This document shows positions 6,709 through 23,227 of a stretch of 46,797 nt of DNA, in pieces. The notes under the pieces were generated by a model, which did no database searches, was not told the origin of the DNA, and worked only from the letters and a program-made list of their open reading frames with translations. The translations under genes and the position numbers were made by a program. The stretch lies in the NCBI GenBank assembly GCA_905234765.1, contig CAJOIF010000017.1:1-46797 (forward strand). The letters run 5' to 3'. The first letter of the stretch is position 1, and each line of letters begins with the position of its first letter. The DNA comes from an uncultured Bacteroidales bacterium (GTDB taxonomy: Bacteria; Bacteroidota; Bacteroidia; Bacteroidales; F082).

Positions 6709-6777
6709 TATCAGTACATGAAACTAATAGGCTAAAGTGGAACTGAGAATTGTCGAATGTAATCAACAAAAACCATT

Positions 6778-6833
6778 AAATTGCAAATTACTTTGAAAAA
6801 ATCGGGGAAAATTGTCGGGTGGAGATGGCAAAA
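6778..6833 (+). repeat. Direct repeat R1 (~55 bp), first of three copies
   Basis: Shares ATCGGGGAAAATTGTCGGGT and flanking bases with copies at 8177 and 8563, all in the same orientation. This copy is the most divergent, and its internal TTGCAAA/TTTGCAA inverted repeat is degraded. It lies upstream of the intact ATPase gene. The rest of the 329-bp gene-free stretch 6647-6975 holds the terminator above and the promoter/operator below. Confidence 0.8.
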
Positions 6834-6885
6834 TTAAAAAAGTCGCCTCGAAAAGTGTATTTTGGTAAGTATTTTTCTTTTACCT

Positions 6886-6916
6886 CTTGTGGATTGAAAA
6901 AAATGCTGTACTTTTG
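6886..6916 (+). promoter_or_regulatory. Promoter of the AAA_14/DUF4143 ATPase gene
   Basis: TTG at 6886-6888, a 20-base spacer, then TACTTTTG at 6909-6916. The predicted start of transcription is near 6920, immediately before the half-site array. Confidence 0.65.
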
Positions 6917-6931
6917 CCACATGAAGTATAA

Positions 6932-6973
6932 TTACTCAAACTATTGAGTAAATTTACTCAATCCATTGAGTAA
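6932..6973 (+). promoter_or_regulatory. Array of four inverted half-sites (operator-like)
   Basis: Alternating TTACTCAA (6932, 6954) and TTGAGTAA (6944, 6966) half-sites begin at 12, 10 and 12-base steps. They include the perfect 20-bp palindrome ATTGAGTAAATTTACTCAAT at 6943-6962. The array fills the space between the predicted transcription start and the ATG at 6976, so a protein bound here could block transcription and the RNA could fold over the start codon. Regulator unknown; autoregulation by the ATPase is an inference. Confidence 0.75.
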
Positions 6974-6975
6974 AA

Positions 6976-8172
6976 ATGTATAATATGTTTCAAAGAGTTG
7001 AATATCAAATAATAAAGAAAAGACTTGAAGAACCAAGAAGGTTTATTCAAGTGGTGATGGGACCGCGTCAGGTGGGCAAATCGACGGTGGTGAGGCAGGT
7101 TTTGGCTGATATTTCACAGCCTTATTCCATGTTTACGGCCGATGCAGTGCCGGCAGGCAATCTGTTTTGGATCAGTGAATGTTGGGAAACGGTGCGGCGA
7201 AAGATGAAGGCGGAAGGTGCCGGGGAATACATTCTCGTCATTGACGAGGTGCAGAAGATTGATTCGTGGAGCGAGGCCGTCAAAAAGGAATGGGATGCCG
7301 ACACTTTCAATGATGTTAACATCAAGGTGGTGTTGCTTGGCTCGTCGCGGGTGCTGCTCGACTATGGCTTGGCCGACAGCCTGATGGGACGCTTTGAGCG
7401 CATCGTGATGCCGCATTGGTCGTATCCCGAGATGCGTGAGGCTTTTGGTTTTAGCTTGGAACAATACATTTATTTCGGTGCTTATCCAGGTGCAGCACCT
7501 TTGATTGATGACGAGAATCGATGGCTGGAATATGTCACGGGTTCCATCATTGAGGCCACCATCAACAAAGACATCTTGCAGGGTGTGAAGGTGATGAAAC
7601 CAGCCTTGCTTCGGCAGGCTTTCGAACTGGCTTCTGCCTATTCGGGCATGGAATTGTCGCTGACCAAGATGATGGGTCAGTTGCAAGACGCCGGAAATGT
7701 GACCACCTTGGCGGTATATCTCGAACTTCTGGGCGAAGCGGGTTTGGTGCGTACTCTGGGCAAGTATTCCGCCGACGTCGCACGGAAACGAAACAGTGTG
7801 CCGAAGTATCAGGTTTTCAATAACGCTTTGAAAAACATCTATTGTGGGAAGCGTTTTAGCGAAGCGATTGCAGATTCGCGTTTGTGGGGAAGGTTATTCG
7901 AGTCGGCCATCGGTGCCTATATTATTAATGGTGCTACCGCAGGGCGATACAACACATACTATTGGCGCGAAAAGACGGGCCGAGAAGTGGATTATGTGTT
8001 GGAGAAAAACGGACAACTTCTTGCCATCGAGGTGAAAAGCAACACTGACGACAGCAATTCAGGTTTGGGCGAGTTTCGTAAACAATTCAAGAATGCGAAA
8101 GCCTTTATTGTAGGCGAGGGTGGCCTCAAGGCAGAGGAATTCTTGCAGATGAAGCCTGAGATGCTGTTTTAG
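6976..8172 (+). CDS. AAA_14 ATPase with C-terminal DUF4143 domain
   Basis: 398-aa protein of the AAA_14/DUF4143 family. Walker A is GPRQVGKST (about residues 29-37) and Walker B is ILVIDEVQK (about 86-94), followed by a sensor-like LLGSS. The C-terminal DUF4143 domain ends with REVDYVLEKNGQLLAIEVKS, which resembles the D...ExK core of the PD-(D/E)XK nuclease fold. The family is common, multi-copy and patchily distributed in Bacteroidota and archaea; its role is not established. ATG at 6976 is the first after the half-site array; Met4 at 6985 is an alternative. The gene stands alone with its own promoter, between ~55-bp direct repeats, which suggests an accessory, possibly acquired locus. Confidence 0.88.
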   Translation: MYNMFQRVEYQIIKKRLEEPRRFIQVVMGPRQVGKSTVVRQVLADISQPYSMFTADAVPAGNLFWISECWETVRRKMKAEGAGEYILVIDEVQKIDSWSEAVKKEWDADTFNDVNIKVVLLGSSRVLLDYGLADSLMGRFERIVMPHWSYPEMREAFGFSLEQYIYFGAYPGAAPLIDDENRWLEYVTGSIIEATINKDILQGVKVMKPALLRQAFELASAYSGMELSLTKMMGQLQDAGNVTTLAVYLELLGEAGLVRTLGKYSADVARKRNSVPKYQVFNNALKNIYCGKRFSEAIADSRLWGRLFESAIGAYIINGATAGRYNTYYWREKTGREVDYVLEKNGQLLAIEVKSNTDDSNSGLGEFRKQFKNAKAFIVGEGGLKAEEFLQMKPEMLF

Positions 8173-8176
8173 AGGG

Positions 8177-8236
8177 AAATTGCAAACTGTACTTTGCAAA
8201 AATCGGGGAAAAGTGGCGGGTGGAGGTGGCAAAAAA
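8177..8236 (+). repeat. Direct repeat R2 (~55 bp), between the two ATPase loci
   Basis: Begins five bases after the intact ATPase stop codon and ends about ten bases before the stop of the oppositely oriented ATPase remnant. Nearly identical to the copy at 8563. Contains the hairpin-capable TTGCAAA / TTTGCAA pair at its left end. Confidence 0.85.
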
Positions 8237-8246
8237 GGTTGTGTTC

Positions 8247-8422
8247 TTATTCCAAGATCAATTGCTTCAAGGTGTGCTTTTTGAAAAACATGATACTGTA
8301 AACAGGCAGATAGGTAATGCCGTTTTTGATACGGATTTCCCTGTCGTTGTTCAAAACAAAGGCTTGTTGGAATCCAACTTCAGATAATCTTCCAAATAGC
8401 TCTGTATCTTTCTTTTAAGCAT
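8247..8422 (-). pseudogene. Remnant of a second AAA_14/DUF4143 ATPase gene
   Basis: On the minus strand an ATG at 8422 opens MLKRKIQSYLEDYLKLDSNK, a typical start of this ATPase family just before where the Walker A motif should be. After 23 codons the frame hits a stop. In another frame, the sequence resumes as FVLNNDREIRIKNGITYLP and runs VYSIMFFKKHTLKQLILE to a stop at 8249-8247, which looks like the family's usual C-terminus. The whole ATPase core (roughly 350 codons in intact relatives) is missing, so this is an internal-deletion pseudogene keeping both ends. It converges on the intact ATPase gene, with repeat R2 between them. Identification by eye from short ends. Confidence 0.7.
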
Positions 8423-8430
8423 ATAAATTA

Positions 8431-8547
8431 CAGTTTTCCTATAAATTTTACCCTGTAAAAATACACTTTTCCTATAAATTTCGGACTATAAAAATACATT
8501 TTTCCTATAAATTTTGTCTTGTGAAAATACGGTTTTCTTATAAAACC
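8431..8547 (-). repeat. 33-bp tandem repeat, about 3.5 units, upstream of the ATPase remnant
   Basis: On the minus strand, units at 8547-8515, 8514-8482, 8481-8449 and a partial 8448-8431 share AAATTTATAGGAAAA followed by TGTATTTTTA. The last partial unit ends 9 bases before the remnant's ATG. Because 33 is a multiple of three, the array is open in one frame as an 11-residue repeat (KFIGKxYFYxx), but this is more likely a regulatory array than a gene. It occupies the same position relative to the start codon as the half-site array of the intact ATPase. Confidence 0.8.
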
Positions 8548-8562
8548 CGTAAAAATCGGTAA

Positions 8563-8617
8563 AAATTGCAAACTGCACTTTGCAAAAATCGGGGAAAATT
8601 GTCGGGTGGAGGGGGGA
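8563..8617 (+). repeat. Direct repeat R3 (~55 bp)
   Basis: Third copy, lying upstream of the 33-bp repeats and the ATPase remnant. Arms TTGCAAA and TTTGCAA with a 6-base loop are intact, followed by AAATCGGGGAAAATTGTCGG. The gene-free stretch 8173-8678 is fully accounted for by R2, the remnant, the tandem repeats, R3 and about 60 featureless bases before the endonuclease stop. Confidence 0.85.
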
Positions 8618-8678
8618 CATAAACTCGCCAAAAGAAGTCTTTAGGCGTTGGACTTGTTGAGTTTATCCCAATGGTAAT

Positions 8679-10406
8679 TTAAGAAAGAAACAACTGTTGT
8701 TGCACCCGATAAGAGTTCATTTTGTCGGTATAAATCGAAATGGAGCTGTTTTTCAAGAGTTGGAGAATCTCATCATAATTAATGCCTAACGATTGAAGTG
8801 TTTCACTATCCATAAACAAACCCACAGTTCTTTCAATTGTCACAGGAGTGATTTTGACATCTTCACGAATTGCTTTGAATTGAAAGAAGTCGGCCACATC
8901 GTCATGCACACATGGAGCGACCATCATGACACGATATTTCAATTTGGTTTTAGACTCTTCTTCTTTTACATGACGGACAATGTTGGTGGTTTCACTATTC
9001 TGTTGTTGTTGTCGGCTAGTGATCATCGTCGGTTCAAGAATATAAGACCCAAACTTGCTATGGAAAATAATGTCGCTTTTCCCTCCAGGTGCACAATGTA
9101 AAGGCAGACCATCTTCGTCATAAATAATATTTGAAACCAAACCTTCCAATCCATATCTTTTGCCAAAACATAACGCAAGAAGATATTCTAGCCGCAATGG
9201 TTCTGGGATGTCATCCAAATCAGATTTTCTTTTGTTCCGATGAGCCAATATTAGCAGTTCTCTATTAATGAAATCATAATCATAGCGGTTGACAGCTTTT
9301 TGCAGTGAATGAGTGAAAAATATCCTATCCAATAGTTCTTCATTGTCCTCCAAAGTATTAGAAGGGTTCATAGTCATTCCAAGGACTTTTGCCTTTTCTT
9401 CTACTATCTTTCTCCGAATGAAATCGTTCGTTTCCCATGGAATGTTTTGGCATTCCATGAAAGCGTAGTATTCAGGAATAGAGCTAAATTGATGGAACTT
9501 GTAGCTTTTGAAGGCATCTATTATTGCTTCCACTTTAGCTCGATTGTATTTGGAGAAATTGATGTAAATGTAGGCAAATTGTCCATGTTTAACAAGAAGA
9601 CCTGTCATTTCAAATTTACGGAACACCTCGTCGGGATAATCGCGAATAAGGCTATTATATTGGATAGGCAGTATGCCTTCGTCTCGAAGATGTTTTTGGA
9701 GTTGCAAGCGTTTTGCTTCATATCTGTTTTTCAATCTATAATTGATGATTTTCTCGGCACACGCTTGATAATCACAATCTTTCATGCTAAGAACGAAAGT
9801 GCCAAACTCATGCATTAGAATGCCTTTGGGCTGATGCCCTAACATACTCCATCTTTTGTTGACTTCATTGATGACAAACAAAGTATTAAGGAAAGGGCGA
9901 GATTGATTGAGCAGTTTAACTCTAACAGGGCTGTTGGCATGCATTCCAAGCATGACCTTTGTATAGGTCACGGTTGGATCTATTATATTGTCAATAAGAT
10001 CTTTACCCAACTTGGTAATAGAAATTCTATATGTTCCTCTTCTGACCTCCTCAAACATTAAGAATCCCTGATCTTTAAGCGACCTGATTTGTGTCATTAC
10101 CCTACCATGCAAACCCGTCGCTTGAGGATTGTCATCAATGGCCCTTCGGATTTCTTCGGGTGACAAGTCTATATCGTTGTTCCATTTTTCCTTAATTTCT
10201 GATGAAATGTCTGAAACCTGATAGATTCCCTTTTTGATTAGTTCATAAAGATATGCATACGAGCATTCATCATCAAAGACTTTCCCATCAAAAGGTTGAA
10301 ATAAAGTCAGGAAATCTCTATTTCGTTTTGGGTTTCTTATCGTGGTGTTAATAGAAAACACCTTGAATCCTTTTCTGTTTCCGCTTCTGCCTTGGATTTC
10401 AGTCAT
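8679..10406 (-). CDS. AlwI-family type IIS restriction endonuclease
   Basis: 575 aa, the usual length of the RE_AlwI family (AlwI, relatives of the GAGTC enzymes), which cut beside short asymmetric sites. Family signs: the N-terminal FSINTTIRNPKRNRDFLTLF followed by LIKKGIYQ (residues 19-60), and near residue 460 the motif APGGKSDIIF ... YILEPTMITSRQQQ, which in this family supplies the PD-(D/E)XK-like catalytic Asp and Glu. A winged-helix-like stretch (residues 90-160) may contribute to DNA recognition. The start overlaps the end of the upstream methyltransferase gene by 8 bases, so it is the last gene of a three-gene operon; being downstream of both methylases suits safe establishment in a new host. 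Base composition is clearly AT-richer than the flanks. The recognition site cannot be read from sequence. Confidence 0.85.
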   Translation of the reverse strand: MTEIQGRSGNRKGFKVFSINTTIRNPKRNRDFLTLFQPFDGKVFDDECSYAYLYELIKKGIYQVSDISSEIKEKWNNDIDLSPEEIRRAIDDNPQATGLHGRVMTQIRSLKDQGFLMFEEVRRGTYRISITKLGKDLIDNIIDPTVTYTKVMLGMHANSPVRVKLLNQSRPFLNTLFVINEVNKRWSMLGHQPKGILMHEFGTFVLSMKDCDYQACAEKIINYRLKNRYEAKRLQLQKHLRDEGILPIQYNSLIRDYPDEVFRKFEMTGLLVKHGQFAYIYINFSKYNRAKVEAIIDAFKSYKFHQFSSIPEYYAFMECQNIPWETNDFIRRKIVEEKAKVLGMTMNPSNTLEDNEELLDRIFFTHSLQKAVNRYDYDFINRELLILAHRNKRKSDLDDIPEPLRLEYLLALCFGKRYGLEGLVSNIIYDEDGLPLHCAPGGKSDIIFHSKFGSYILEPTMITSRQQQQNSETTNIVRHVKEEESKTKLKYRVMMVAPCVHDDVADFFQFKAIREDVKITPVTIERTVGLFMDSETLQSLGINYDEILQLLKNSSISIYTDKMNSYRVQQQLFLS

Positions 10407-11274
10407 AATTGGTAACTAATACTTCTATTGTGTCTGTTATATTGATTTTCTGATAATTGGCATTTCTATACTGCCGTTTCATAAAGTGTACATGGTAGTT
10501 CTCGGACCATTTTTTCAAGATGGCGTTTTCCTTACCGTTTGAAAGAAAAACATTTGAGAGAGCAAAAAGCTTCCCTTCCGCATTTAATCTATCCAATAAG
10601 GATAGTAAATTGTTCTCTTCTTGTACACCCCAATTGTTATTGTACGGAGCAGTTGTCACAAGATACGGTGGGTCATAATAATAAAAAGCCTTTGGCATTT
10701 CATATAGAATTTCATCCTTGAAATCTAGGGTGCTAAAATTCAAAGATTTGCCTTTTATTCCATCCAAAAAACTCTTCAGGTGACCATAAATAGATTGAGA
10801 CAAGTCAACTTTCCCTACAGGCACATTGAATTCACCTTTACCATTGAAACGCAAGTAATGATTAAAACCATAAATAAGTAGCACGACCAACTTACTAACT
10901 TCATGCCTCTTATTGTAATCGTCTTTCAGCCGTTCATATCCTTCCTTATTGTATAAAGACAAACCTTCATGTTTGTATTCCACATAGGTTCCTTTGGGAT
11001 GTATGCGAGAATATGTCAAACCATAGGCTTCTATTATTCGTTCCAATTCTCCAATAACAGTCTCAAAATCATTCTCATAGAAATAGCGCAACACTTCTAT
11101 AATATAGGGGTTGTTGTCGTTACAATAAATAGTCTTTGCGGCTGAATTGACTCCAACTACACCACTGCCACAGAATACATCAACGAAAATACTAATATCA
11201 TCAGGAAAAAGCGGAACTATTTCCTTTAGAAGTTTGTTCTTGTTTCCAGGGTAACTTATCGGATTGACAATCAT
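10399..11274 (-). CDS. D12-class (Dam-like) N6-adenine DNA methyltransferase
   Basis: 291 aa. Order typical of Dam/DpnM enzymes: N-terminal SYPGNKNKLL (residues 7-16), AdoMet motif FVDVFCGSGVVG (about 30-41), and the catalytic DPPY in FYYYDPPYLV (near residue 200). Expected to methylate adenine on one strand of the site cut by the neighbouring AlwI-type nuclease. Asymmetric sites commonly need one methylase per strand, which explains the second methylase next door. Overlaps the upstream methylase by ATGA and the nuclease gene by 8 bases. AT-rich like the rest of the operon. Confidence 0.92.
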   Translation of the reverse strand: MIVNPISYPGNKNKLLKEIVPLFPDDISIFVDVFCGSGVVGVNSAAKTIYCNDNNPYIIEVLRYFYENDFETVIGELERIIEAYGLTYSRIHPKGTYVEYKHEGLSLYNKEGYERLKDDYNKRHEVSKLVVLLIYGFNHYLRFNGKGEFNVPVGKVDLSQSIYGHLKSFLDGIKGKSLNFSTLDFKDEILYEMPKAFYYYDPPYLVTTAPYNNNWGVQEENNLLSLLDRLNAEGKLFALSNVFLSNGKENAILKKWSENYHVHFMKRQYRNANYQKINITDTIEVLVTNYD

Positions 11275-12104
11275 AGTCTTGCGATGGCTTTTTGATAGTA
11301 GTTATTGTCAATTTCACACCCAATGAACCTCCGTTTTAGTGTCAAGCAAGCAACCGCTGTTGTCCCTGACCCCGCAAATGGATCGAAAATAATATCGTTC
11401 TCGTTCGAGTGAATCTTGATTAGCTCCGAAAACACTTGTAGGCTTTTTTGAGTTGGATGGATTCTGTTTTTCCCACCAAGTAAAACGCTAGTGCGGAAAG
11501 CAGGTCGCAAATAGGGAATATCGTCTGGCTTATTGAAAGTCCACTTCTGTTTATTACCTTTTACAGCCCAAACAGCAACCTCGAAATCCATCACATATCG
11601 ACTGTTCACATTGCGCGGCATGGGATTTGACTTCTCCCATCGAATTAAGTCTTTTATTACAAAACCATTTTCGAGCAATGCCTCAACAAGATAAGAAAGG
11701 TTTTTCCAGTCGTTGAATATGATAATTGAACCGCCCGCTTTAACATAAGGTGAGCATAGATTTATCCATTCCTTTTGGTCAAAATTGTAATCCCAATTAC
11801 CATAATTCATCCCTGACCTTCCCATGTTCGAAAAACCAAGTTGGTAATCACGGCTAACGCAATACGGAGGGTCAGTAAGAATCAGGTCAACTAAAACTCC
11901 TTTTGACTGAATTTCGGGCAAAAGATCTTTATAATCGCAGTTGCGAAATAGGATGTCTTCGGTTTCCAAGCATGCATCAAATATTGTCGGTCCAGAGAAA
12001 CCTGATCCATCACTTAATAAATTGTCATCATCTAAAGATGACAATCCGAATTCATTATTATATTGAATATCGGAATATTTAGCTTTTTTCTTCTTTTCTG
12101 ACAT
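11271..12104 (-). CDS. N6/N4 DNA methyltransferase (second modification enzyme)
   Basis: 277 aa from ATG at 12104. The catalytic motif TDPPYCVS (DPPY at 78-81) comes before the AdoMet motif FDPFAGSGTTA near residue 250, the beta-class order of the N6_N4_Mtase family (DpnA/HinfI-like). A lysine-rich start (MSEKKKKAK) was chosen over the longer open frame, whose extra 45 residues would be read through the repeat structure upstream. First gene of the restriction-modification operon. DPPY rather than SPPY favours adenine methylation. Confidence 0.9.
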   Translation of the reverse strand: MSEKKKKAKYSDIQYNNEFGLSSLDDDNLLSDGSGFSGPTIFDACLETEDILFRNCDYKDLLPEIQSKGVLVDLILTDPPYCVSRDYQLGFSNMGRSGMNYGNWDYNFDQKEWINLCSPYVKAGGSIIIFNDWKNLSYLVEALLENGFVIKDLIRWEKSNPMPRNVNSRYVMDFEVAVWAVKGNKQKWTFNKPDDIPYLRPAFRTSVLLGGKNRIHPTQKSLQVFSELIKIHSNENDIIFDPFAGSGTTAVACLTLKRRFIGCEIDNNYYQKAIARL

Positions 12105-12105
12105 T

Positions 12106-12261
12106 GTGGTAGTTTGCAGAGTTAGGAAAATAAAATCGCAGGGTACTCCTATCGGACTCTGCGGGCTACCACACCCTTTCCCCACAATAGTTTCACCTGC
12201 GAAAACGCAGGCATCAACCATTTTCAATGGGGAAATCAAAATAGTGGTAGTGAGCAGAGTT
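12106..12261. repeat. Structured leader repeat of the restriction-modification operon
   Basis: Three copies of GTGGTAGnnnGCAGAGT: plus strand at 12106-12122 and 12244-12260, minus strand at 12172-12156. The last two face each other and close a ~105-nt imperfect hairpin. Inside it TTTCCCCA (ending near 12183) pairs with TGGGGAAA (12228-12235), and CCTGCG/CGCAGG (12196-12211, AAAA loop) forms an inner stem. The element begins two bases upstream of the methyltransferase ATG and would be transcribed as its 5' leader. It could be an operator, an RNA structure or a recombination or MITE-like relic; nothing in the sequence decides. Confidence 0.7.
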
Positions 12262-12519: not shown

Positions 12520-13584
12520 TCAATTCCCAGTTATCGTTTCTCCAAATCTATTATTCACATGTTGTTTCCAATTCCTCACCGCCACTTCCTTGCTCGCATT
12601 CGCATAGCAATACTCGCACAAATGCGGGCAGGTGTTGTATTCGCCAATGTCCTTGCTCACCATGCAGCCGCAGAACTGCCGCTGGCCTTTGTCGCGGTTG
12701 TCCTTTTTCTTCAGGGCGTATTGCGTTTCGCTGAGCATCATAGCATTGGCGGGAATCGGCTCCGTGCCAAACAAAGAGTTTTCCACGGTCTTAATCTCCA
12801 CATCGAGGAAGTCCATCAAAGCCTTATCGTGATGCGCAAAGCGAATCATCAAGTCATCATCCACACAGCGGTTGTGTTGGATGACGTATGGCGCAAGGTC
12901 AATCTTCTCGCCACAGGTGGCCAATTGGTAGTGCCATTTCTGTTTGAGTTCCGAAAGCCTTTGGGCAAACTCTTCCATCTGGTCGGTCGTCCATTCCGTA
13001 TAGTTCACATGGCTTTTCTCAAGGTTGGCTTTCACCTTTTTATATAAGGCGATGTCGGCATAGCTGAAAACGAGTTTCTCGGTGTAGCCCAAAAGTTGGT
13101 CGCCAATGTTTTCCACTTTCCTCAATAGATCATCCAAACTGATGTGGTCGGTCAGAATCAGCGGGTCAAATCGCCAAATCACACGGCCTTTGCCCAACTT
13201 GTCCACCAACCGCTTGAAGGTGTCAATGCGCTCATCCAAGGCTGGCACACCTTTTTCCATGCCTTCTTTCACATAGTCGTTCAGCGTGTATTGTATATAG
13301 CAGTCGATGTTTCTTTCCTTCAGTTCGTCCAAATGTTCAAGCAACGGCTTCGGGTTCTTCGACCAAAACACGATGAAGCGGCATTTTTCATACGAGATGA
13401 AACTCTTCACGCCATTGAATGGATTGGTCCAAGCGGAATAACCGACCTTTAGCCGATGGAAGAACCAGTCGGCATAAAAAGCGGGAATGTCCGTGCTGCG
13501 GCTTGCGGAGATGATGACAGGGGCTTGCGCCTCGGCCATCATGCCGTTATCTCGCTGGATTTGTGTCTTTTGCCATTGGGTCAT
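12520..13584 (-). CDS. DUF1848 family protein with C-terminal CX3CX2C cluster
   Basis: 354 aa. The N-terminal half has VIISASRSTDIPAFYADWF (about residues 23-41) and FIVFWSKNPKPLLEHLDELK (about 70-89), followed by YIQYTLNDY, the recognisable DUF1848 core; it resembles the barrel of radical-SAM enzymes such as spore photoproduct lyase. Near the C-terminus five cysteines occur, C305, C307, C319, C323 and C326, the last three spaced CX3CX2C exactly like a radical-SAM iron-sulfur site but at the opposite end of the protein. Biological function is not known. ATG at 13584 follows a TAATTTTG promoter by about 30 bases; an internal Met at about residue 15 is possible. Base composition returns to the background here, so it is probably not part of the AT-rich island. 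Confidence 0.8.
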   Translation of the reverse strand: MTQWQKTQIQRDNGMMAEAQAPVIISASRSTDIPAFYADWFFHRLKVGYSAWTNPFNGVKSFISYEKCRFIVFWSKNPKPLLEHLDELKERNIDCYIQYTLNDYVKEGMEKGVPALDERIDTFKRLVDKLGKGRVIWRFDPLILTDHISLDDLLRKVENIGDQLLGYTEKLVFSYADIALYKKVKANLEKSHVNYTEWTTDQMEEFAQRLSELKQKWHYQLATCGEKIDLAPYVIQHNRCVDDDLMIRFAHHDKALMDFLDVEIKTVENSLFGTEPIPANAMMLSETQYALKKKDNRDKGQRQFCGCMVSKDIGEYNTCPHLCEYCYANASKEVAVRNWKQHVNNRFGETITGN

Positions 13585-13623: not shown

Positions 13624-13701
13624 GGTAAAGCCATTCCATTCCGCAAGCAGAAAACCGAAATAGTTTTCAACAATGCATCATTCCAAGATGCTTTCCAAAA
13701 A

Positions 13702-19798: not shown

Positions 19799-21064
19799 TC
19801 ATGGGGTTACATCCTGGACGAGACGAACGGAGCATCCAGTATATCGAGGATTCTCAAACCCTGTACTGTAATTCACATTAGTAAAATAAAAACTATGTGC
19901 ATGAGTATAATCAATATTGCTATGCACGTATGTAGCCGACCATAAAAAGCCATGAGACAAGACCTCACTTACCGTTCTTCCGAACCTTCTACCAGCAGCT
20001 GGCAAAAACACCACCCCATACTGTTTCAAGGTATCCCATTGAGTAGCATTTATGATGTTACTATCAAAATCTGCATCGGGGTTTACGTTGTTAAAAGAAT
20101 AATATGAGGCATCCCAATCGTCAGGAAATATTATTATTCCATTTATTCCGTCAACTTGCGCTTTTATAAAAGTGTAGACTAAGTTCAATTCTTCATCCCT
20201 TGTATATATGAGAAAATCCAATTCATCGTGCGTCAGGGTTCTCCATATTCCAGGGGAATTGCCGCCATTACTAATGGCATTTACACCCCAATCGGCTTGA
20301 CCTGTCTGGTCATCTAAATTATACATATTTGGATAAGTAGTATAGCCATATGCGCAATAGTCAACATAATTGGTGGTCGATGACCAAGGCTGATAACACA
20401 CTGCCCCGTGATTATAACCACTTGTTCCCCATCCAAACAAATCTATCCAACCGTCATACGTCGAAGAAATCAACTCATTATTACACTTCACACCGTTTTC
20501 TTCAACAGTACCATGAACGCCATCACCTACATAATCCCACTGGTTTTCCGCAAACCTCCATGTATTCGTTGAAGCCTGATACTGCAAATTGCCTTGTGAG
20601 AAATAGACTTTCTGTGTTCGACTCACAGAAAACAAACCGTTGATTATTCCTTCAGGAACAGTATCTTGTGGTGTCGGTGGTTCAGGCGGCTCTGGCATAT
20701 CAAAAACCTGTGTGTGGAAAGTCTTTTGATTCGTCTGATAAGCACTACCGCCATTGGGAAACAATTCATAATAATAGTAGTATAGCGTATCGCTCAACAA
20801 ATCGTTTAGCGTAAGTTCAAAGAAAGCCTCCTGCTTTGTCATTTCGGCGGCTGCGAATTGTTGTTCCTCGGTAAGGCTGTAATGGAACACCACCTTTTGC
20901 AATTCCGCGTGATCCGTCCGTGTGTATTCCACATGGACATCCTTCATGCCCACCGTCATGATTTCGTCATTGCCATCCCCAATTTCCGGATGGACTTCTT
21001 TGCTCTTGGTACAGGCTGCTAAGGCGAGTAATGCACATGCTAATATGATTGATATCTTTTTCAT
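19799..21064 (-). CDS. Surface lipoprotein, FISUMP-like paralogous domain
   Basis: 421 aa. Lipoprotein signal MKKISIILACALLALAAC (Cys18). Residues 20-130 form a strand-rich region with an acidic/proline hinge (MPEPPEPPTPQD). Residues 140-421 form one copy of a domain starting VYFSQGNLQYQASTNTWRFA and ending FLPAAGRRFG ... GCSVRLVQ, related to the Fibrobacter-succinogenes-major/C-type-lectin-like family. The same domain forms the C-terminus of the next gene upstream, so the two are paralogs. Last gene of the operon from 24861; 33 bases from its neighbour. Function unknown; surface display likely. Confidence 0.82.
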   Translation of the reverse strand: MKKISIILACALLALAACTKSKEVHPEIGDGNDEIMTVGMKDVHVEYTRTDHAELQKVVFHYSLTEEQQFAAAEMTKQEAFFELTLNDLLSDTLYYYYYELFPNGGSAYQTNQKTFHTQVFDMPEPPEPPTPQDTVPEGIINGLFSVSRTQKVYFSQGNLQYQASTNTWRFAENQWDYVGDGVHGTVEENGVKCNNELISSTYDGWIDLFGWGTSGYNHGAVCYQPWSSTTNYVDYCAYGYTTYPNMYNLDDQTGQADWGVNAISNGGNSPGIWRTLTHDELDFLIYTRDEELNLVYTFIKAQVDGINGIIIFPDDWDASYYSFNNVNPDADFDSNIINATQWDTLKQYGVVFLPAAGRRFGRTVSEVLSHGFLWSATYVHSNIDYTHAHSFYFTNVNYSTGFENPRYTGCSVRLVQDVTP

Positions 21065-21097
21065 TTTGCTTAATTTTAAATATTGTCAGAAGGAAGC

Positions 21098-23227
21098 TTA
21101 TTGAGCAATATGCACCAAACGTACAGATTGACCATAATAGTGATGACCCCAAGTGCCCGGTTCAAGGCTGATATCAGAGAAATTCACAAGGTAAACTTGA
21201 ATGTCACTCATGTGCGACGACGACCAATAGCGACCATAGTTAACATCAACTGTATCAGTTCCATATCGTCCGCCAGCAGCAGGCAGAAACACAGCACCAG
21301 CATTTTCCAAAACACTCCATTGAGCGATGTTGATTGTATTACTGCTACAATCAGCATCGCTTTGGTTCGTGTTATTTAAAGTGTAAGTACTCGTACTCCA
21401 GTTGTCGGGTAACAATATTACGCCTTTAACATCGTTCACAATGGCTTTGGCATAGCGGATACCTGATGACGTACTACGAGTTTCGAATAAATAAACCCAC
21501 TCCTCGACAGTCAATGTTCGCCAAGAATTAGTTATATTGCCTCCATTACTAATGGAATTGTAACCCCAATCAGCTTCACCTGTCTGATCGTACAGATTGC
21601 CTGTGATTTGCCCATATGGATAGTAGTCAGACCAATCACAACTCGTACTCCATGGTTGATAGCAATTTGCACCATGATTGTAGCCGCTCGTTCCCCAGCA
21701 AAATAAATCAATCCAACCATCATATATGGATGAAATTAAAGAATTGTCACATTTAATATTATTTTCATACACAGTGCCACTCCAACTATTCCCAACATAA
21801 TCCCATTGATATTCTGCAAAGCGCCAAGTATTTGTTGAAGCCTGATATTGTAGGTTCCCTTGCGAAAAATACATTTGATCAACATTGGCATTGATGGTGA
21901 ACAGGCCGTTGATGGCACCTTCAGGAACGTTACCAGGAGGAGTAGGTGTGTTGTTTTTGCGTACAGGACGAATAGACTGACCGCTATAACGAAAACTAGT
22001 ACCAATGCCACCTCCGTTCGGACTAAAGGAAAACATCCAAGCGGCAATTGGATAGTTTGTGTCAAGCGAACTCGACCAGTACAAGCCTTCGCTACCTTCG
22101 CCTTCGATATCATACCCAACATTTCCTGTATTGTTGCCATTATAATGACCCGCTGCTGGTAGAAATAAACTATTACAACTTGAAGTAAGAAGCAGCCCGA
22201 ATATTCCGTTTTGGGTTGTCCATGTGGTATCGGTGTTATCAAAAAGCTCTTGCCATTGTTCTTTGGTTGGCATACTCCAATTCTCACCCAAATTCACTAT
22301 TGCCGCATCATCTTCTGGTAACAAAACACTAAGATTATCGGTGAATCCGTTGCTACCATAAGTAGGATTATTACAGTACTTGGTTAACGAGTAGAAATCG
22401 CCATTGCAGTATTTATAGGTTCCTACAGTGAAATCGGTTTTTGGATCCGTTTCACCCCATGCAAAGTAATCGCCATATTTTTCTGGAGAATCTGCACCTA
22501 TATTACATGTAGCCCAAAGTGTTCCGCTTGGCAGGCAAAGGTCAACGTATTCTTCTATCGTTCCCGTCACAAACTCCCTATCCAATCCATAAGCGGTACC
22601 TTTCTCATTGGTAGCATAAGCACGAACATGATAAATGGTATTGGCTTCCAAACCATCCATCATAGTAGTGAATGCACCCGTTCCTGTGCCTGAGGCCACA
22701 TGACTATCGCTCAAAGTGGGATTGGCATTAGTACTCCAGCAAATACCGCGCTCAGTCACTTCGGCGCCGCCGTCATTGGTTACCTCACCACCGCCCTTGG
22801 CGGAATTGGCGGCGATTTCTGTCACTTCAGCGGTAACCACTGTAGGCAATGTAATCGTTGTGCCAGAGCCTTCTGTCTTGAACGTTTTTGCCGTCGTCCG
22901 CATAGAGTTGAAGCCATTATGAAACTCGTAATAATAACTATATGTAGTGTTCGCCTTCAATCCTGCGAGATCGACATACAAGGTATTTTGCACCACGAGC
23001 ATCTCGGCGGTGTTCATGTCGTCTTCTTCTACGCCTTCACCATAATAGAGATAGGCTTTCTTCAAAGTGGTGATGTATTGGTAGTCGCATTGCACTGTTG
23101 CCGTAGTGGTGCCAACAGTAATCAGATCACGCTCTACATCCACATATTTCAGGTTTACCTCTGGGGTCTTCTTGCAGGAAGCTAAAGTCGCTACAAGAGC
23201 CAATATAATTATGCTTATTTTTTTCAT
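21098..23227 (-). CDS. Surface lipoprotein: FN3-like plus two FISUMP-like domains
   Basis: 709 aa. Signal ends at Cys18 (ATLASC), and the first residues closely match the neighbouring paralog. An N-terminal region (20-118) is followed by an FN3-like domain (about 125-222, GICWSTNANPTLSDSHVASG ... YHVRAYATNEKGTAYG). A FISUMP domain (226-432) runs from YVDLCLPSGTLWATCNIG through WSMPTKEQWQEL to GQSIRPVRK. A linker TPTPPGNVPEG leads to a second domain (440-709, YFSQGNLQYQASTNTWRFAE ... GQSVRLVHIAQ) shared with the next gene. Such modular lipoproteins are common in gut and oral Bacteroidales; no ligand is known. 12 bases from the upstream gene. Confidence 0.85.
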   Translation of the reverse strand: MKKISIIILALVATLASCKKTPEVNLKYVDVERDLITVGTTTATVQCDYQYITTLKKAYLYYGEGVEEDDMNTAEMLVVQNTLYVDLAGLKANTTYSYYYEFHNGFNSMRTTAKTFKTEGSGTTITLPTVVTAEVTEIAANSAKGGGEVTNDGGAEVTERGICWSTNANPTLSDSHVASGTGTGAFTTMMDGLEANTIYHVRAYATNEKGTAYGLDREFVTGTIEEYVDLCLPSGTLWATCNIGADSPEKYGDYFAWGETDPKTDFTVGTYKYCNGDFYSLTKYCNNPTYGSNGFTDNLSVLLPEDDAAIVNLGENWSMPTKEQWQELFDNTDTTWTTQNGIFGLLLTSSCNSLFLPAAGHYNGNNTGNVGYDIEGEGSEGLYWSSSLDTNYPIAAWMFSFSPNGGGIGTSFRYSGQSIRPVRKNNTPTPPGNVPEGAINGLFTINANVDQMYFSQGNLQYQASTNTWRFAEYQWDYVGNSWSGTVYENNIKCDNSLISSIYDGWIDLFCWGTSGYNHGANCYQPWSTSCDWSDYYPYGQITGNLYDQTGEADWGYNSISNGGNITNSWRTLTVEEWVYLFETRSTSSGIRYAKAIVNDVKGVILLPDNWSTSTYTLNNTNQSDADCSSNTINIAQWSVLENAGAVFLPAAGGRYGTDTVDVNYGRYWSSSHMSDIQVYLVNFSDISLEPGTWGHHYYGQSVRLVHIAQ

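Follow-up and report, generated by a model that had tools for sequence, protein, structure and literature searches.

What is a short repeat doing beside a pair of ATPase genes in a Bacteroidales genome, three times within 2 kb? The window, by which we mean the whole 46,797-nucleotide stretch of DNA analyzed here, contains such a repeat (R; copies R1, R2 and R3). The original prediction, made from the letters of the window, described three same-orientation copies of ~55 bp that share a core and a hairpin and bracket two AAA_14/DUF4143 ATPase loci, and it suggested that ATPase genes may travel as cassettes bounded by these repeats.

Anatomy and distribution of R

A repeat search of the window located three same-strand R copies at about 6776-6835, 8176-8236 and 8563-8622, with 72% and 88% identity to the reference copy over 60 nt (repeat family D2). 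The predicted common core is borne out, since three places in the window, and no more, match ATCGGGGAAAANNNNCGGGTGGAG with 3 or fewer mismatches, compared with none in 100 shuffles. The hairpin is also present, as TTTGCAAA-N6-TTTGCAAA, and is degenerate in R1. The placement is as had been claimed, with R1 before intact ATPase A, R2 a few bases past the stop codon of A, and R3 beyond broken ATPase B. The predicted length fits R2 and R3, which are 60 bp, but not R1, whose full extent (6748-6836, ~90 bp) includes a left third that is missing from R2 and, judged by eye, also from R3.

The full site R1 is made up of three imperfect palindromes (u3, u2 and u1) that lie about 33 bp apart and therefore on one face of the helix, while R2 and R3 are partial arrays (u2+u1) that stand at cargo boundaries. 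The R consensus matches itself best at a lag of 33 (33 of 62 positions), and the next lag by fraction is 56 (19 of 39). The 6-base spacer between the TTTGCAAA arms is inverted in G097, G130 and G002 (CTACAC, compared with GTGTAG elsewhere; alignment A3), which would be a change tolerable to a symmetric dimer site. A conserved RNA was rejected as the source of R: although the alignment of 12 sites folds into a single long imperfect hairpin, it shows no pair with changes in both partners. An Rfam search of the window gave a tRNA as the sole match.

Scanning the genome collection with a 20-base-specific pattern returned two loci, both in Bacteroidales MAGs with RUG in their isolate names, which we take to mean rumen origin. 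There were 0 exact R matches in viral_contigs, and hence no viral carrier was seen. Within the family of one of these two MAGs, 11 of 173 genomes carry the R core when up to 3 mismatches are allowed, against 0 for a control pattern; one of the 11 has two copies and the others a single one, and the left part of R is found exactly once in each of the 11. A sequence model of R built from 12 full sites extends this set, at E <= 1e-9, to a convincing site in 20 of 172 family genomes, namely the same 11 and nine diverged ones; extra sites under the model are a second in G119 and three partial ones in G114. At E <= 0.1 the model listed 122 of 172 genomes, and these weak matches, which are probably chance, were left out of all counts. 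With few copies per genome and few genomes carrying it, R is no ordinary REP, and the contrary case named in the original prediction, a genome-wide REP with no link to the ATPases, does not describe these 20 of 172 genomes with their few copies. A dif or terminus site was not supported either, as the GC skew keeps its sign from one side to the other in both places tested (G113 and the window).

ATPase genes and remnants beside R

R lies next to a particular ATPase gene. Intact M, an AAA_14/DUF4143 ATPase, starts 45-46 bp from R in all three loci where it is intact, and the M proteins of these loci (G072, G109 and G119) are 88-100% identical. The left ends of R could be assigned more generally. 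Out of 25 rows examined, 22 have a left end (partial sites G114b, G121 and G137b were left out), and 17 of these, the window included, adjoin an ATPase gene or its remnant, with p 0.005 for each assignment against 200 simple shuffles and three references per row. The 22 divide into the M leader (10, three of them with intact M), the M tail (3: the window, G100 and G137), the tail of another DUF4143 gene (4) and nothing recognizable (5). Coding matches to AAA_14/DUF4143 ATPases occur within 3 kb of R in 12 of 24 loci, counting G114a and G114b as one locus and with several flanks shorter than 3 kb. R-bearing genomes carry 6-63 DUF4143 genes each, and vicinity at 3 kb is therefore partly chance, direct abutment less so. 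The predicted tie between R and these ATPases is supported by the left ends and by the distance to intact M.

The best account of R1 from these alignments is that it would be the upstream array of M, with the gene itself lost from the window; M would sit to the left of R1. R retains 88% mean column identity (alignment A3) even though most sites are without M, which mere decay does not predict. In the upstream repeat test described below, G072 is the only intact M locus that passes (p 0.01, with p 0.03 for G119 and p 0.14 for G109), and the poor values are due to divergence of the R units.

Table 1. Features of the window around the R copies, in order of position
Feature	Position	Strand	Basis
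Degenerate remnant of 3' tail of M	6717..6747	-	Local alignment to M tails of G109, G119 and G072; p 0.005, 200 shuffles
R1, full site u3+u2+u1	6748..6836	+	Model R1, 78.6 bits; alignment A3; self-match lag 33
Orphan single unit of the array of ATPase C (genome G001)	6839..6860	+	By eye; one place in window
Array of ATPase A, a pair of ACTCAA..TTGAGT palindromes at a 22-bp interval	6932..6973	+	Inverted repeat I16; lag 22, p 0.005
ATPase A, AAA_14 + DUF4143, PDC-S01	6976..8172	+	Pfam, PADLOC, structure model
R2, 60-bp partial array u2+u1	about 8176..8236	+	57.2 bits, model positions 32-91
ATPase B, broken	8247..8422	-	Three-frame reading; first codons fused to last ~45, middle missing
Array of ATPase B, 33-bp direct repeats	8425..8544	-	Repeat D3; lag 33, p 0.005
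R3, 60-bp partial array u2+u1	8563..8622	+	65.8 bits; model match runs 8544-8618
AlwI-type restriction endonuclease and two DNA methylases, island cargo	8679..12239	-	Pfam
DUF1848 gene, near far end of island	12520..13584	-	Pfam, cross-locus comparison

R1 is not the only array in this part of the window. Arrays or units of M, C, A and B are all found there, which makes 6717-8622 a pile of four ATPases' arrays in which A alone is intact and orphan arrays stand beside ATPase remnants (Table 1). The array of A sits between promoter and start codon, the 3' end of broken B matches a PDC-S01 protein (E 1e-9), and the array of C has three 33-bp units in G001, as read by eye. Comparison with G001 also delimits one module. 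Window 6776-8156 matches a u2u1-A block of that genome at 89%, starting exactly at u2 and with a different left context, and this block, which lies at R in the window, is found elsewhere in the G001 island. In turn, 411 bp of the window (8177-8587) match, at 92.7%, the G001 stretch that runs from R1 through the same broken B with its array. Taken together, the two matches make the window look like the G001 stretch with u2u1-A set between u3 and u2. Among the closest relatives of A (82-95% identical), 10 of the 12 inspected are without R in their 1.5-kb flanks, which rules out R as the partner of A-type ATPases in general. Of the predicted repeat-bounded cassettes, one block found in two settings is supported; R as a general end of a mobile unit is not supported.

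Housekeeping genes lie to the left of R and differ across loci, with an M16 peptidase in the window and, read from ORF starts, what are presumably rpsO/pnp, frdB, pheT and others elsewhere. The right side is a variable island with genes mostly reading towards R. Near its far end lies a DUF1848 gene in 12 loci including the window (75-90% identical to the window's); the gene of G098 is in two pieces, one of them 64% identical to the window gene, and G097 is a 13th locus, with a distant one. G002 has another ATPase beyond DUF1848, so the DUF1848 gene is not always the last of the island. The island is AT-rich in G113. Three pairs of genomes (G052 versus G113, G002 versus G130 and G097 versus G098) contain island-free loci, in which frdB directly adjoins the same right neighbor; these are related genomes and not the sister strains in which the original prediction asked for empty sites. 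The absence of transposases and integrases also held, in that none appear among the Pfam matches of ten window ORFs around R. Neither a recombinase nor a target duplication was found at the R loci, where flanks of other genomes were read from ORF starts, and no R copy was found at the right island end in the 12 right flanks compared.

Several other sequences recur in these islands. One TTGGAATGG-type unit lies upstream of the DUF1848 gene (window 13675-13696), and the same type of repeat is present at 33-bp spacing in related loci L184 and L193; it is probably another orphan ATPase array. BspA-type leucine-rich-repeat proteins with a common N-terminal stretch, MDNPTFDKVRDLSTKF..., are recurrent island cargo (L033 11910-14071 and several other islands), and PADLOC gave no match for the one tested. 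A ~400-aa protein (...MKVIIICLAIIVVPIIIKAIWVGIATRHNGDFESEK) recurs beside R (L033 8479-9701 and several other islands) and has no Pfam or PADLOC match. Further along the window, 20258-21948 holds a stretch in two copies, 71-81% identical and about 1.27 kb apart (D1, D4, D5).

Upstream arrays in the PDC-S01 family

All five ATPases tested match the PADLOC models of PDC-S01, with M the weakest (E 2e-27) and A matching PDLC04791 over its full length (E 8e-174, residues 4-397). PDC-S01 is a phage-defense candidate of PADLOC that combines AAA_14 and DUF4143, and its anti-phage role has candidate status. We take the family to be COG1373. In the upstream repeat test, tandem repeats were scored against 100 dinucleotide shuffles for each gene and called significant at p <= 0.02. 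Repeated units stand at the gene's own promoter, as an autoregulatory operator needs, in 81 of 108 PDC-S01 family genes compared with 12 of 104 control genes. The lags are almost always 22-23, 32-33 or doubles of these. Relatives of A are positive in 28 of 28 cases, with lag 22 in 23 of them (30 loci, two dropped for short flanks), and relatives of M in 14 of 30, at lags 32-33. The controls for these two sets are DUF1848 (4/30, three at lag 33, which are perhaps orphan arrays), FrdB (0/19) and rpsO (2/15), and the rate in controls is above the 2% expected.

Since many of the tested genes are relatives, the greatest weight goes to the single-genome and cross-phylum sets. An upstream repeat is present at 18 of 24 DUF4143 genes of genome G119 compared with 3 of 16 neighboring genes, with lags of 22, 23, 29, 32, 33 and 66 and with units that differ between genes; the set was drawn from the best-scoring 30 of 63 DUF4143 matches, less six without a complete ORF. 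A search of 198 genomes across the phylum gave 14 of 18 genes versus 3 of 24 neighbors (8/8 in G002 and 6/10 in other genomes). For named plasmid records, 7 of 8 genes reach p 0.005 with 200 shuffles and no neighbor control, at lags of 32, 33, 64 and 66. These eight were chosen for spread from 59 matching records and cover Bacteroidota, Fusobacteriota, Actinomycetota, Chlamydiota and Pseudomonadota; a Parabacteroides distasonis plasmid gene (lag 33, p 0.035) falls short of the threshold. No significant direct repeat was found for 16 of 30 M relatives and 6 of 24 G119 genes, including the four best-scoring DUF4143 genes fetched. In MLRFIDNDLRRWQ-like ATPases from other genomes of the phylum (L264-L269), a short CCTTGTA unit occurs at 33 bp, and three of the six arrays miss significance.

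A unit over the score threshold could be defined for 74 of 107 genes, and 72 were used for placement, where upstream copies are present by construction. Extra copies were seen within 300 bp downstream for two genes, elsewhere in the locus for one and inside the gene for none. The last unit is a median of 39 bp from the ATG in these 72 genes, and TAnnTTTG occurs within 130 bp upstream in 60 of them.

Unit similarity follows protein similarity, with a mean of 0.80 above 80% protein identity and 0.30 below 25%. Among the 700 pairs with 25-85% identity, the unit is best predicted by the winged helix (partial r 0.36, p 0.003), and AAA+ has a negative value. When all 2,688 pairs are taken, the partial r is 0.02 for the winged helix, 0.19 for the nuclease and 0.14 for AAA+. 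The nuclease part leads within the A and M families (0.31 and 0.54; p 0.005) and the winged helix in the remaining genes (0.22, p 0.015), all p values of these correlations being permutation values that ignore phylogeny. We conclude from these sequence comparisons that the DUF4143 half, rather than AAA+, appears to follow the array where proteins align well, and conclude nothing beyond that. The comparisons do not secure the winged helix alone as the reader of the array. The structure model of A (pLDDT 89.4; 85-63 for the other four ATPases) can be divided into an AAA+ part, a winged helix and a PD-(D/E)XK-like end. Its fold matches in the PDB are an archaeal ATPase (2qen, TM 0.51) and, more weakly, DNA-bound Orc1/Cdc6 (2qby, TM 0.33), and no convincing solved relative was found by sequence (best E 0.71).

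Origin of the R loci and meaning for PDC-S01

With a probability of about 0.62, we favor the explanation that R1-R3 are orphaned, self-recognized operator arrays of PDC-S01 ATPases in a hotspot of ATPase turnover. PDC-S01 genes commonly have such an array in their own promoter region, each with its own unit sequence and repeating every 22-23 or 32-33 bp. We infer that each ATPase most likely binds its own array through its DUF4143 half (winged helix and PD-(D/E)XK-like fold), that the bound ATPase would hold its own promoter down, and that common array pieces would give later array-plus-ATPase modules a site for recombination. ATPases would come and go in islands, and an array can outlast the gene to which it belonged; R2 and R3 would be the two distal palindromes of the M array, brought by or left from other modules. 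Much like the arrays described here, the autoregulatory operators of defense and toxin-antitoxin genes have palindromic or direct-repeat units at their own promoter; the arrays differ in clade-typical spacing (22-23 or 32-33 bp) and a unit per paralogue, and their repression is predicted. Plasmid iterons and Orc1/Cdc6 origin repeats likewise stand in tandem and in phase with the helix, next to a gene for an AAA+ winged-helix protein, whereas the ATPase genes here number 6-63 per genome and no replicon function is indicated.

There are alternative explanations for the R loci. First, u2+u1 could be an attachment site, one for each cassette of block and gene, with an unknown recombinase inserting circles at u3/u2. 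Integron and pdif gene cassettes are such gene-plus-short-site modules, and as here they are rearranged at one place. One full R per genome in 11 of 11, the common start of about half of the listed partial copies (model 32-35), the u2u1-A block in two different settings (window and G001) and the order of A then u2u1 in the window, G137 and G119 would all fit. We nevertheless consider it unlikely, as no integrase is found among the window ORFs tested, gene orientation varies, R is part of an ATPase promoter region and lies at the promoter of M wherever M is intact (3 of 3), 10 of 12 A relatives inspected are without R, and recombination between 60-bp homologies accounts for the same junctions.

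Second, and somewhat less probable again, the arrays could be read by another protein, such as a host regulator or nucleoid protein. Binding of the arrays by the ATPase is a prediction, many genes are without a clear array, and the winged helix does not predict the unit over all pairs; on the other side, a single shared regulator would not produce units that vary among the paralogues of a genome and resemble each other in close relatives. An improbable third possibility is that the ATPase-nuclease moves or copies its own gene by acting at the array, which would make the arrays element ends and not operators. The PD-(D/E)XK-like end in the A model and the turnover of ATPases and modules are consistent with it, but arrays occur on one side of the gene only (downstream in 2/72) and at the promoter (60/72). 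Finally, R is short and can form a hairpin, as REP and MITE sequences do, yet an ordinary repeat of this kind or a chance match is barely credible for a sequence with 1-2 copies per genome in 11/173, no multitude of dispersed copies, a tie to one gene family and three core matches in the window against 0 expected.

The explanation by orphaned operator arrays concerns a family that is widespread and, in the parts of the two papers available to us, described without experimental validation (PMC12988326, PMC13356809). As far as the available text of the first goes, PDC-S01 is the fourth most common defense class across prokaryotes, most such candidates still await validation, and the protein is the same fusion of an ATPase with a PD-(D/E)XK domain that we see here, with upstream arrays absent from that description (PMC12988326). 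According to the accessible part of the second, no individual locus is more frequent than it in the genomes of the cattle rumen (PMC13356809). No mention of upstream arrays at PDC-S01, DUF4143 or COG1373 genes was found in the literature within reach, which leaves out most subscription papers.

More tentatively, and with less confidence than for the R loci, we suggest that much of PDC-S01 may have a private upstream array for each ATPase at a clade-fixed spacing, such that dozens of paralogues would amount to dozens of codes, and orphan arrays would record losses and receive new modules. The array at the gene's own promoter offers a handle on which DNA the PDC-S01 protein binds and how it is kept quiet. 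Private arrays would bear on why dozens of paralogues per cell need not cross-talk, and orphan arrays would trace lost defense genes. The turnover of such an island can be followed at the R loci.
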